DNA from: Chitinophaga pinensis
Lineage (GTDB): Bacteria; Bacteroidota; Bacteroidia; UKL13-3
DNA length: 32,650 bases
Assembly (NCBI GenBank): GCA_945873755.1
Contig: CAMCEM010000019.1
Coordinates: 1-32,650, forward strand
Direction of reading: 5' to 3'
Translations under genes and position numbers: made by a program
Part shown: one piece after another, positions 28,071 through 32,650 of the stretch
Layout of the letters: each line of letters opens with the position of its first letter
Numbering within the stretch: position 1 is the first letter of the stretch
Notes under the pieces: generated by a model
Database searches by the model: none
What the model was told of the DNA's origin: nothing
The model's input: the letters and a program-made list of their open reading frames with translations, nothing else

Positions 28071-30608
28071 ATGGAAAATGTAATTTATTTAATTCCCGCG
28101 TTGGGAATAATTGGTTTAATAGTAATGGCTATTAAAAGCGCTTGGGTAAACAAGCAAGATGCAGGTGATAAAAACATGCAAGAACTAGCAGGTTATATTG
28201 CTGATGGCGCTATGGCATTTTTAAAAGCCGAATGGAAAGTATTAAGTATTTTTGTTGTTTTTGCTTCGGCTTTATTGGCTTATTCAGGAACAATTCATGA
28301 AATTAATGGAAAAGAGGTTCACGGAAGTTGGATTATTTCTATTGCTTTTATTATAGGTGCAGTATTTTCGGCAACTGCTGGATATATTGGTATGAAAGTG
28401 GCTACAAAAGCCAATGTTAGAACTACACAAGCTGCTAGAACTAGTTTAAAACAAGCTTTGAAAGTTTCGTTTACTGGCGGAACTGTAATGGGGTTAGGGG
28501 TTGCTGGTTTAGCAATACTAGGACTAGGTGGTTTATTCATTGTTTTCTTAAGCATTTTTGCTGACTTAGGAGAAAACACTGTTAAAACAGCAATTGAAGT
28601 ATTAACAGGATTTTCTTTAGGAGCTGAATCTATTGCTTTATTTGCCCGTGTGGGTGGTGGTATTTATACAAAAGCTGCCGATGTTGGTGCCGATTTAGTT
28701 GGTAAAGTTGAAGCTGGTATTCCAGAAGATGACGTTAGAAATCCTGCAACTATTGCCGATAACGTTGGTGATAACGTAGGTGATGTAGCTGGTATGGGTG
28801 CCGATTTATTTGGTTCGTACGTAGCAACTATTTTAGCTACAATGGTTTTAGGCCAAGAAGTAGTTGTTACTGATAATTTTGGTGGTATGTCGCCCATATT
28901 ATTACCAATGGTAATTTGTGGATTAGGTATATTGTTTTCAATAGTAGGAACTTGGTTTGTAACAATTAAAGATGATAAGTCGAATGTTCAAAATGCTTTA
29001 AATTTTGGAAATTGGGCATCTATGGGTTTAACTGTAGTTGCTTCCTATTTTATAGTAAATTGGATGTTGCCTGAAGGAATTATTTCATTACGTGGTGTTG
29101 AATTTACAAGAAATGGTGTTTTTGGTGCCATTTTAGTTGGAACTGCTGTTGGTGCAATTATGAGTATAGTTACTGAATATTACACCGCAATGGGTAAAGG
29201 TCCAGTTAACTCAATTATTCAACAATCAGCAACTGGACATGCTACTAATATTATTGGTGGTTTATCGGTTGGAATGAAATCAACAGTTATTCCTATTTTA
29301 ACTTTAGCTGCAGGTATTATGGGTTCTTATCATTTTGCAGGTTTATATGGTGTAGCTATTGCTGCTGCTGGTATGATGGCAACTACTGCTATGCAATTAG
29401 CCATTGATGCTTTTGGACCAATTGCAGATAACGCAGGTGGTATTGCTGAAATGAGTCAATTACCTCCTGAAGTTCGTGAACGTACTGATAATTTAGATGC
29501 AGTTGGAAATACAACAGCAGCTACAGGAAAAGGATTTGCAATTGCTTCGGCTGCCTTAACTTCTTTGGCATTATTTGCTGCCTTTGTTGGAGTTGCTGGA
29601 ATTGATGCAATTGATATTTATAAAGCTCCAGTTCTTGCTGCTTTATTTGTGGGTGGTATGATTCCTTTTATCTTTTCGGCATTGTGTATACAAGCAGTTG
29701 GAAAAGCAGCAATGGACATGGTACAAGAAGTTCGTAGACAGTTCCGCGAAATACCAGGGATTATGGAATACAAAGCCAAACCTGAATATGAAAAATGTGT
29801 AGCTATTTCTACCAAAGCATCTATTCGCGAAATGATGTTGCCAGGCGCAATTGCTTTATTAACACCAATTATAGTTGGTTTTGGTTTTAAAGGAATGTTT
29901 GCTGATGCTAGTTCTGCTGAAATGTTGGGCGGATTATTAGCTGGTGTTACTGTTAGTGGTGTGTTAATGGGTATTTTTCAAAGTAATGCTGGTGGTGCTT
30001 GGGACAATGCTAAAAAATCGTTTGAAAAAGGTGTAATGATTAATGGCGAAATGTTTTACAAAAAATCTGAGCCACATAAAGCTTCAGTAACTGGTGATAC
30101 AGTTGGTGATCCTTTCAAAGATACTTCGGGCCCATCTATGAATATTTTAATAAAATTAATGTCGATTGTTTCGTTGGTAATTGCTCCTTACATAGCAGTT
30201 CAAGGTGGATTGAAAGCAGATAAACTAGCATTAATGAATGGTGAAAAAATGGAATGTTGTGCCATGGATTCAATGGATATGGATCATTGTGGAATGATGG
30301 GTAATTGCGATATGAGCAAATGCATGAACATGACCAAAGAAGAGTGTGCAGTTTATTGCGATAGCTTGAAATGTACTCCTGAACTAAAAGCAATGTGCCA
30401 AAGCATGTATGGTGCCGATGGTAAATTTGATTTGGCAAAATGCAAAGCAATGTGCGAAAAGGAAAGTGGTTGTATGGAAGGTTGCGATAAAGGTTGCAAA
30501 ACAGAAGAAGAGTGCATGAAAAGTTGTGATAAAGCTTGTGTAGCTGCTCACAAAGAAAGTAAAGCTTGTTGTAATGAAGGCGAAGAAAACGCACACGATA
30601 AAAAATAA
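28071..30608 (+). CDS. hppA: Membrane-bound ion-translocating pyrophosphatase with a Cys/Met-rich C-terminal tail
   Basis: This 845-aa integral membrane protein has about 16 helices and couples PPi hydrolysis to export of H+ or Na+. The catalytic motifs are [11 protein letters not shown] (D204-E214, the DX7KXE substrate site) and DNVGDNVGD (230-238), with a second Asp-rich segment at [27 protein letters not shown] (about 477-486) has Ala at the position where K+-independent enzymes have Lys, so a K+-dependent enzyme is inferred; H+ versus Na+ cannot be decided. The normal protein would end near residue 725. Instead about 110-120 residues follow that hold 19 Cys and about 15 Met, plus His and acidic residues ([20 protein letters not shown], then [19 protein letters not shown]). 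A metal-binding or redox-sensing tail is the likely reading. The frame is continuous and a terminator follows, so this is not a fusion artefact. Confidence 0.94.
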
Positions 30609-30663: not shown

Positions 30664-30846
30664 GGGAATAAAATTGGTGCAATTATATTTTTTACATCTA
30701 CTTTTTCTAAAAGTTAGTTGATAACAACGACCGAAAGCAAAGTATATACTGCAAATTATAAACATTTTTTGCATTACAACTACAGTTTTGGAGCTATAAG
30801 TTGGCGATTTCGGAGACGAAAACTGTCTGCCACCACTGAATCCGTT

Positions 30847-30912
30847 AGCTAACGGACACAAAGCTTCATTTAACCACTGAACCGCCAATTTCTTGTAGGT
30901 GCTGTTAGTGGC
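30847..30912 (-). repeat. attC-like recombination site A (downstream of the S41 peptidase gene)
   Basis: On the minus strand it runs from the R''-like GCCACTAAC (30912-30904) to the R'-like GTTAGCT (30853-30847), about 64 nt between 7-mers. That is within the known attC size range (about 57-141 nt). The R' side sits in a perfect 14-bp palindrome CCGTTAGCTAACGG (30842-30855). Internal arms are weak (CTACAAG against CTTTGTG). It starts 5 nt past the S41 stop codon, as attC sites usually do. Confidence 0.55.
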
Positions 30913-30917
30913 AGTTT

Positions 30918-32102
30918 CTATTCTATTTCGTTCATTTTTTTAATTGTTTCGTCAATGTTCTGTGTCAGTATTGTTGGTTTATATTTTTCTCGTGGTATTC
31001 CGTTAATATGGTAAAGTCTTTCTGTTGGAATTTGAAAACCAATTTGTGTTTCTGTCATTACAAATCCGTTAATTGCACCTAATAATTTTGCCATTTCTGT
31101 TCCAATAATTTTTGCTCTTTTAAGTCCGTCAAAGCCAATAGCAATACCTTCTCCCATACTTCCTGTCCAATGTCCAACTATGATAAAAACATTTCCTTTA
31201 AATTGTGTTTTTCTTGGTATTACAAATTCAACCCATTTTCGTTGAGTTTGAAATTCTTTTTCGTCAAATTCGTGTTGTTGATAAGGCTTTGTTTTGCTAA
31301 TAAATCTTCCCATTATACACCTTGCAACAGTTGAGTTTCCTCCACTTGCAGTTTCTGTTAAGTCAATAACAAGATTTTTATATCCCATAAATTCATCAAC
31401 AGCGTTGTCAAAGTCTGCAATAGTTTTAAAGTCACCTAATGAATTATTAATTTTAATGTATGCAGTTGTTTTGTTTAATGCTTTTTTTTCAATTAAGTTA
31501 GTTGTTTCTGTTGTTTGCAAACTGTCTGGAAATAAATTTAATTGTTTTCCATTTCTGTTTATTGTAATTATTCTTTTGGTATCGTGAGTTCCTGCAAACA
31601 ACATATTCAAAGCATATTGATACATTTCTTGCGAATGTGTAGTAGTAAATTTTGGTAAGAATTTTTCTACTTGTTCAGGTATAGATTTGTTATTAAAAAG
31701 AATTATTTCATCGCCAATTTTCAAGCCTGATAACTCTGCTCCAAATCCTTTTCGTAAGTCAGTAATATAAAATTTCTTGTTCTGTTTTTGAACAAACATA
31801 TCCTGCCCACTTGGTATAATACGGTTTGAAGAGTTTAAATTCGTATTTAAAGAAATGTGTCCATTATGAAACTCGTTTAACGCAGTTTCCATCAACTGAA
31901 TAAAGTCGTTGTCGTTTGAAATCTGTTTTATTTTTGGCTGATAGATTTCTTTTACTTTATCCCAATTTATTTGTTGTTGGTCAAAGTAGGAATAGTTGTT
32001 ATTTACATCGTTCCAAAACTCGTTAAAGTCTTTTTCATACTTCGTTTGTCCGAATGATACGTTTGCAAACAGCAATGTTAAAAAGCCTAAAAATATTTTC
32101 AT
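30918..32102 (-). CDS. S41 family peptidase (tail-specific protease type), cassette-borne
   Basis: This 394-aa protein has a signal peptide (MKIFLGFLTLLFANVSFGQ), so it acts in the periplasm or at the surface. Residues about 25-90 are an N-terminal helical part. A PDZ-like segment follows (about 115-145, GFGAELSGLKIGDEIILFNN). The S41 catalytic core has NLVIDLTETASGGNS (243-257) and VGHWTGSMGEG (309-319) with the likely nucleophile S315. K339 lies 24 residues later, near the spacing of the Lys general base in CtpA-type enzymes; a tricorn-like Ser/His mechanism is also possible. The gene fits tightly between two attC-like sites: 45 nt from the cassette start to the ATG, and 5 nt from the stop to the next site. 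That suggests it is integron cassette cargo. Substrate unknown. Confidence 0.87.
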   Translation of the reverse strand: MKIFLGFLTLLFANVSFGQTKYEKDFNEFWNDVNNNYSYFDQQQINWDKVKEIYQPKIKQISNDNDFIQLMETALNEFHNGHISLNTNLNSSNRIIPSGQDMFVQKQNKKFYITDLRKGFGAELSGLKIGDEIILFNNKSIPEQVEKFLPKFTTTHSQEMYQYALNMLFAGTHDTKRIITINRNGKQLNLFPDSLQTTETTNLIEKKALNKTTAYIKINNSLGDFKTIADFDNAVDEFMGYKNLVIDLTETASGGNSTVARCIMGRFISKTKPYQQHEFDEKEFQTQRKWVEFVIPRKTQFKGNVFIIVGHWTGSMGEGIAIGFDGLKRAKIIGTEMAKLLGAINGFVMTETQIGFQIPTERLYHINGIPREKYKPTILTQNIDETIKKMNEIE

Positions 32103-32138
32103 TTGTTACTGTCTGTTGTTACGGGGTTTCGGTGAAAT

Positions 32139-32279
32139 TGCCACTAACGGTCCGATGCTTTGCGCAGGCCCGGCAAAAACCGCCGAAGCTCATTGCGAAG
32201 CACCATGTTCAAACATAACCCAATTTTCAATAGAACCACCACTTGCCGGGCTGGCGCTAAGCATATGTTATGGGCGGCA
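32139..32279 (-). repeat. attC-like recombination site B with 22-nt imperfect arms
   Basis: On the minus strand it runs from R''-like CGCCCATAAC (32276-32267) to R'-like GTTAGTGGC (32148-32140), 132 nt between 7-mers. The inner arms at 32155-32176 and 32243-32264 match as inverted repeats in 19 of 22 positions around a 66-nt spacer. The whole can fold into one long hairpin of the kind attC bottom strands form. It sits just upstream of the S41 peptidase gene. Confidence 0.62.
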
Positions 32280-32544
32280 GATGTGCATCACGATAATACA
32301 GGATTGTACGGGCTTTTCTCGTCCTTTTATTTCACTGATCAAGTTTTTGCTAAGCGAAACAGCGAGCCCTCGACATTTCTTTCGCTAATCACTATTTCCG
32401 CCCGCATGTGATGGTTGAGTCTTGTCGGTGATCCGACTATCGCGAGAGTGGGCTAGGAGGCGGAATAAAATAGAACCCCAGGTCGCCCATAACGTTTTGC
32501 AGCTTGGCCTTTAGTTTGAAAAATAGAAAAAAAACAATAAATTT

Positions 32545-32629: not shown

Positions 32630-32650
32630 ATAGTTGAGAGGCTTCAAATA

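Follow-up and report, generated by a model that had tools for sequence, protein, structure and literature searches.

According to published work, it is the I2 helix that enables an integrase to recombine single-stranded attC hairpins; this helix is described as confined to integron integrases, and IntI1 loses its function when the helix is deleted (PMC7790495). A classification of the recombinases mentions in passing IntI proteins in which the insertion is not fully conserved, and calls the insertion essential for function. In the Treponema integron the integrase is transcribed toward attI (PMC3607928), and clusters of attC sites lacking an integrase are termed CALINs (IntegronFinder, PMC9024848). 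Surveys with IntI-specific profiles have placed complete integrons within Bacteroidetes proper in Salinibacter only (PMC9024848). Integrons of Bacteroidota with a patchless integrase, that is, one without the approximately 41-residue insertion (patch, I2) of IntI, were not found described in the literature searched, which excluded preprints and most subscription journals, and priority is not established.

The window, by which we mean the whole stretch of DNA analysed, is the complete contig C19 (32,650 bp) of a 3.13-Mb Bacteroidota genome in 202 contigs. Judged by comparison of sequences, it very probably holds a two-cassette stretch of a Bacteroidota integron whose cassettes would be moved by a patchless tyrosine recombinase encoded elsewhere in the genome. 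With classical integrons (IntI-attI-attC; class 1, the Vibrio superintegron) the Bacteroidota system shares 3' attC hairpins, insertion at G|TT, an attI beside the integrase gene, arrays in one orientation, a catalytic core of the Xer/IntI type and a C-terminal ...SP(L/F)D motif. It differs from them in an integrase that lacks the ~41-aa insertion and usually has an extra N-terminal domain, in an attI that lies downstream of the integrase gene, and in R boxes that are conserved at AAC/CGTT only. The order integrase, attI, cassettes, all in the same direction, is that of the Treponema type, but the integrases described there are intI integron integrases (PMC3607928), whereas the Bacteroidota enzyme forms a patchless clade. 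The catalytic domain without the insertion is shared with XerA/XerC/XerD and the "simple YR" group (PMC8138268), as is the match to NCBIfam NF040815; unlike these, the Bacteroidota enzyme lies outside the XerC/D clade and is accompanied by attI, cassettes and the N-terminal domain.

By its anatomy the system is an integron: the cassettes are bounded by G|TT and end in a 3' attC with inverted R''/R' and L''/L' whose structure is conserved over its sequence, and an attI beside an integrase is found outside the window, on contigs C168 and C102 and in relatives. MAG assemblies break at attI/attC repeats, a caveat for such assignments. Under the strict definition, which asks for an IntI with its additional domain, the system would not be a member, because that domain was looked for and is absent.

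Organisation of the array

Three G|TT boundaries on the minus strand, read directly near the right end of the contig, delimit two cassettes. The features are as follows.

28071 to 30608, plus strand: conserved 845-aa ORF, tail-to-tail with the array and marking the insertion locus; in all 10 same-genus genomes, in several of them without an adjoining array.
30772 to 30912, minus strand: attC site B, with R'' GCCACTAAC (30912-30904), L'' AGCACCTACAAGAAATTGGCG, L' CGCCAACTTATAGCT and a degenerate R'; match to covariance model R1 at 30912-30772, 64.6 bits, E 5.5e-15.
30783 to 32147, minus strand: cassette 2, starting TTAGTGGC and carrying an S41-family protease gene; from the boxes read and attC site B.
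30918 to 32102, minus strand: gene of cassette 2, a 394-aa Tricorn_C1 + Peptidase_S41 protein (Pfam 7.9e-14 and 9.3e-13).
32140 to 32276, minus strand: attC site A, with R'' CGCCCATAAC (32276-32267) and R' GTTAGTGGC (32148-32140); R1 match at 32275-32140, 42.1 bits, E 4.4e-9.
32148 to 32492, minus strand: cassette 1 (345 bp), starting TTATGGGCG at 32492; boxes read directly.
32493 to 32510, minus strand: left boundary of cassette 1, ending GCCAAGCTGCAAAACG, which resembles the L'/R' end of a preceding attC (compare ...TAGCTGCAAAACG in related attCs).

Cassette 1 begins at the crossover 32493/32492, and the remainder of the site preceding it is close to or past the contig end, which is reached ~160 bp upstream of the array. 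The list of ORFs holds no substantial one on its cassette strand. Site A is a long imperfect hairpin with L'' ATGCTTAGCGCCAGCCCGGCAA and L' TTGCCGGGCCTGCGCAAAGCAT and the terminus ...GGACCG|TTAGTGGC (crossover 32148/32147). In site B, L' CGCCAACTTATAGCT at ~30806-30792 pairs with L'' AGCACCTACAAGAAATTGGCG in a hairpin of ~140 nt, and the site extends to ~30783-30772; the R' at the end of the array is degenerate (CAAAACTGTAGTTG), and the 3' boundary of cassette 2 is therefore placed with an uncertainty of ~4 nt (30783-30779). In relatives of site B the L' arm is CGCCAACTTCTTGTAGCTGC and the intact site reads ...CGCCAACTTCTTGTAGCTGCAAAACGTTA. The first-pass annotation, made from the letters of this DNA, had given lengths that stand for site A and fall short for site B, for which 64 nt had been proposed; the box at 30853 that it took as the end of site B is outside the conserved stem, the relatives placing the real L' ~50 nt further.

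Its central observation, integron-type cassettes with self-complementary ends paired by cassette and not by site, holds exactly: each cassette start is the reverse complement of its own downstream R'' (TTATGGGCG with CGCCCATAAC, TTAGTGGC with GCCACTAAC). The S41 gene was not found in the other 63 genomes of the same family, and an Rfam scan of the window returned a tRNA alone.

Recombinase and attI in the rest of the genome

The window contains two attC sites and neither attI nor, as had been annotated, an integrase; this absence is due to the contig ending at base 32650. Alone, the window would score as a CALIN, but the genome holds an integrase gene on contig C103 and an attI with cassettes elsewhere. 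C103 encodes an intact 347-aa recombinase without the patch and ends ~40 bp past the coding region; its homologues in relatives stand directly upstream of attI/attC, in the same direction. A search of all proteins of this genome for an intI, as had been proposed, gave none passing the IntI model TIGR02249: the best was this patchless recombinase, with 206.8 bits against a cut-off of 265 and a match that skips model positions 179-237. It passes NF040815 (227.2 against 220), scores 186-205 with the XerC/XerD models, below the cut-offs of 330-335, and does not group with the genome's own XerC/D proteins.

Contig C102 carries an integrase remnant, an attI and an attC. Contig C168 starts with attI and has four attCs; the start of its first cassette, TTAGCGGT, is matched by the R'' ACCGCTAAC at 1562, the second cassette also matches its R'', and the third and fourth do so partly or not at all. 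By eye, the products of its cassettes (L285) are two small proteins of SnoaL-like or lipoprotein-like kind, an HTH protein and a HigA-like antitoxin, cargo that is typical of integrons. Tandem-like repeats (GCCTATGGTCGGTGTTTTCACCGAACATTG; CAGATCGTCAGTTGGCAAACCA) surround an integrase remnant and attI at L012 (4690-5760).

Integrase-attI-cassette loci in other Bacteroidota

The layout of tyrosine recombinase, attI and cassettes, all in one direction, is repeated across Bacteroidota. The array of the window, annotated as a divergent array without an integrase, is not an isolated CALIN and belongs to a system that spans the phylum and has a distinct type of integrase. The attI core TATAAACAAG|TTA follows the recombinase stop codon at a median of 102 bp (range 70-168, 47 loci), and the first cassette begins at the TTA of this core. 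The first cassette start is matched exactly, over 9 nt or more, by an R'' at the head of the downstream attC hairpin at 16 of 27 loci of the family, against 0.7 with swapped starts (maximum 4, 300 trials), and at 45 of 58 named loci, against a mean of 0.9 (maximum 4). The named loci include those of Flavobacterium psychrophilum DSM 3660, several other Flavobacterium species, Pelobium and Algoriphagus.

These controls bear on the suggestion that boxes and hairpins are a dispersed repeat, such as a MITE or REP-like element, that flanks genes by chance. The site-B sequence is repeated and scattered, single copies included, as such an element would be, and boxes do occur genome-wide; yet the inserts that they bound differ, the breakpoints fall at G|TT, the sites lie in one direction downstream of the integrase, and R'' matches the start of its own cassette rather than the opposite side of the site. 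The swapped starts (0.7 and 0.9) led us to reject this explanation, whose chance we regard as negligible.

Could the arrays be ordinary CALINs, produced by a patch-bearing IntI in trans or in former hosts, next to an unrelated recombinase? In the phylum's other classes a true IntI is often present (105 of the 395 sampled Bacteroidota genomes), and one member of the family (G005) holds a true IntI that could act in trans. However, G005 is the only one of 64 family genomes with an IntI over the cut-off, against R1 matches to attC in 63 of the 64; just one genome listed for the window's class has a true IntI, nearly all the others lacking it; and in dozens of genomes the patchless gene stands at a fixed distance from attI, followed by the first cassette. 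We allow this explanation a slim chance, and hold to cassette movement by the patchless recombinase.

Several contigs stop at the attI crossover or within a few bases of it (L089, L097, L107, L110, L138), as expected if the following sequence varies or repeats. In the first-cassette starts after attI, position +9 is always A at the 47 loci (the first T past the crossover being 0), which is a constraint beyond the R box. In the attI of L107, L114, L143 and others the arm beside the crossover is often repeated, in direct and inverted orientation and in a manner specific to the lineage, which suggests integrase binding sites that may co-evolve with the enzyme.

Structure and distribution of attC

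Model R1 was trained on the attCs of 31 first cassettes in named genomes, this genome's sites being left out. A covariance-model search of the kind that the annotation had recommended, run with R1, finds both sites of the window, and the genome, searched for further copies, has 13 R1 sites at E below 1e-4. BLAST with the extended site B matches 55 of the 64 genomes of the same family. At the named integrase loci with kilobases on both sides, ~84 attC matches lie downstream, every one on the strand of the integrase, and R1 finds no attC in the 6 kb upstream of the integrase; the few weak minus-strand matches overlap the same palindromic sites. At some loci (L156, L160, L168, L174, L175) a span of 6 kb holds about six to eight attCs.

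Both sites of the window are hairpins. Folded as had been proposed, they have an unexceptional single-site energy (z -0.8 and -1.7); their support comes from the comparison with other sites. In the R1 alignment, RNAalifold unaided gives 14 pairs, each with double changes, and the stem covariation score is 0.554, against 0.161 when shuffled (0 of 500) and at most 0.10 with the 3' side slid. AAC and CGTT are invariant in the 31 sites and are the only invariant part of the core boxes, in agreement with the earlier remark that these deviate from RYYYAAC/GTTRRRY. Within the stem, 28 of the 31 sites retain an A.C mismatch, which is reminiscent, by analogy, of the extrahelical bases of classical attC.

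It could be argued that cassettes and integrase are real and that recombination is Xer-like, on double-stranded sites, the hairpin serving another role such as transcription termination. The Xer-like catalytic domain and the missing I2 helix, which in IntI reads the extrahelical bases, would fit this. The strong covariation of the stem, the conserved mismatch and the invariant AAC/CGTT, however, indicate that the folded form is selected, and the arms pair over a long range and vary in their sequence, as those of attC do. This alternative keeps a small but appreciable chance beside recombination of a folded attC.

The patchless recombinase and proposed mechanism

The spacing from the catalytic lysine (K) motif to HxxR is 106 aa in 17 of 17 IntI and 64-68 aa in 27 of 27 patchless proteins; the ~41-residue insertion of all IntI examined is missing from the attI-linked integrase of Bacteroidota. 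In the tree, the 26 attI-linked proteins group together (100/93), separately from IntI (100/100), and do not fall within XerC/D. In other lineages, too, patchless recombinases (L241, L250, L254, L256, L257, L258) are followed downstream by a G|TT, its matching R'' and attC; of these, L257 and L250 branch as sister to IntI (98/92). The tree hints that IntI lies among patchless integrases, its deeper nodes being without support. Several generic simple recombinases at 40-50% identity lack any attI, so similarity by itself does not define the enzyme family. L240, a recombinase from a lineage with no downstream attI, is accompanied by a divergently oriented cassette bounded by attC, which may be a layout of another kind.

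In most members there is an additional domain at the N-terminus, of beta-beta-alpha-beta-beta type, to which Pfam assigns no family. Its best Foldseek match is the HARP domain of SMARCAL1, a weak one (probability 0.60, E 0.26; profile E 0.76) that had been guessed before the structural search; the predicted resemblance is a weak lead only.

In the mechanism that we propose, the patchless tyrosine recombinase would excise and insert cassettes by joining the G|TT of attC hairpins to that of a double-stranded attI, which lies ~100 bp past the recombinase gene. One attC strand would recombine as a folded single strand, perhaps with the aid of the extra N-terminal domain. The boundaries, the complementarity of each cassette, the covarying stems, the order of attI and first cassette, the movement at G|TT and the missing IntI insertion can be read in the DNA and its translations; catalysis by the patchless recombinase is what we infer from them.

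A broader proposal, which we put forward tentatively and think somewhat less probable than its opposite, is that a phylum-wide class of Bacteroidota integrons recombines folded attC without I2 by another hairpin-recognition device (perhaps the HARP-like N-terminal domain), that classical IntI arose within patchless integrases, and that cassette capture predates I2. A widespread natural patchless integrase beside attI/attC arrays allows direct tests of how I2 originated and of how hairpins are recognised. If such an enzyme runs these integrons, it does so without a part of the protein thought essential, which would change the view of how integrons work and arose; surveys of integrons and inventories of cassettes would also have overlooked a large share of a major phylum, cultured Flavobacterium species included.

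Array mobility and neighbouring genes

The 845-aa ORF beside the array is, by eye, probably a membrane pyrophosphatase. In four same-genus relatives this neighbouring pump gene is without the array, and the S41 gene is absent from that context. In another genome (G040) an unrelated attC occupies the locus, with an array right beside the terminator of the pump gene.

Cassettes have moved elsewhere. In the complete genome G062 a stretch of 2,550 bp is found at two places with 99.8% identity and a left breakpoint ACG|TTAGC. A 1.3-kb stretch, 92.9% identical, is shared by two genera, following attI in one and attC in the other, with the breakpoint G|TTATGTGC. The annotated insertion by crossover at G/TT in a Bacteroidota chromosome is borne out by such breaks of identical cassettes at G|TT.

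Dispersed over the chromosome of G062 are at least 48 matches to the attC model and several copies of the recombinase, some of which are broken (for example L046-L055, L078, L079); this is a case of multiple integrons in one genome. The right ends of arrays (L029, L030, L034, L037, L039, L173; L265) are often without GTT and abut a similar terminator-like sequence, CG|TCAnACTGTCTAAAAAC... In G025 an IS3-like insertion (L056, 9829-11385) lies close to the 3' end of an attC.
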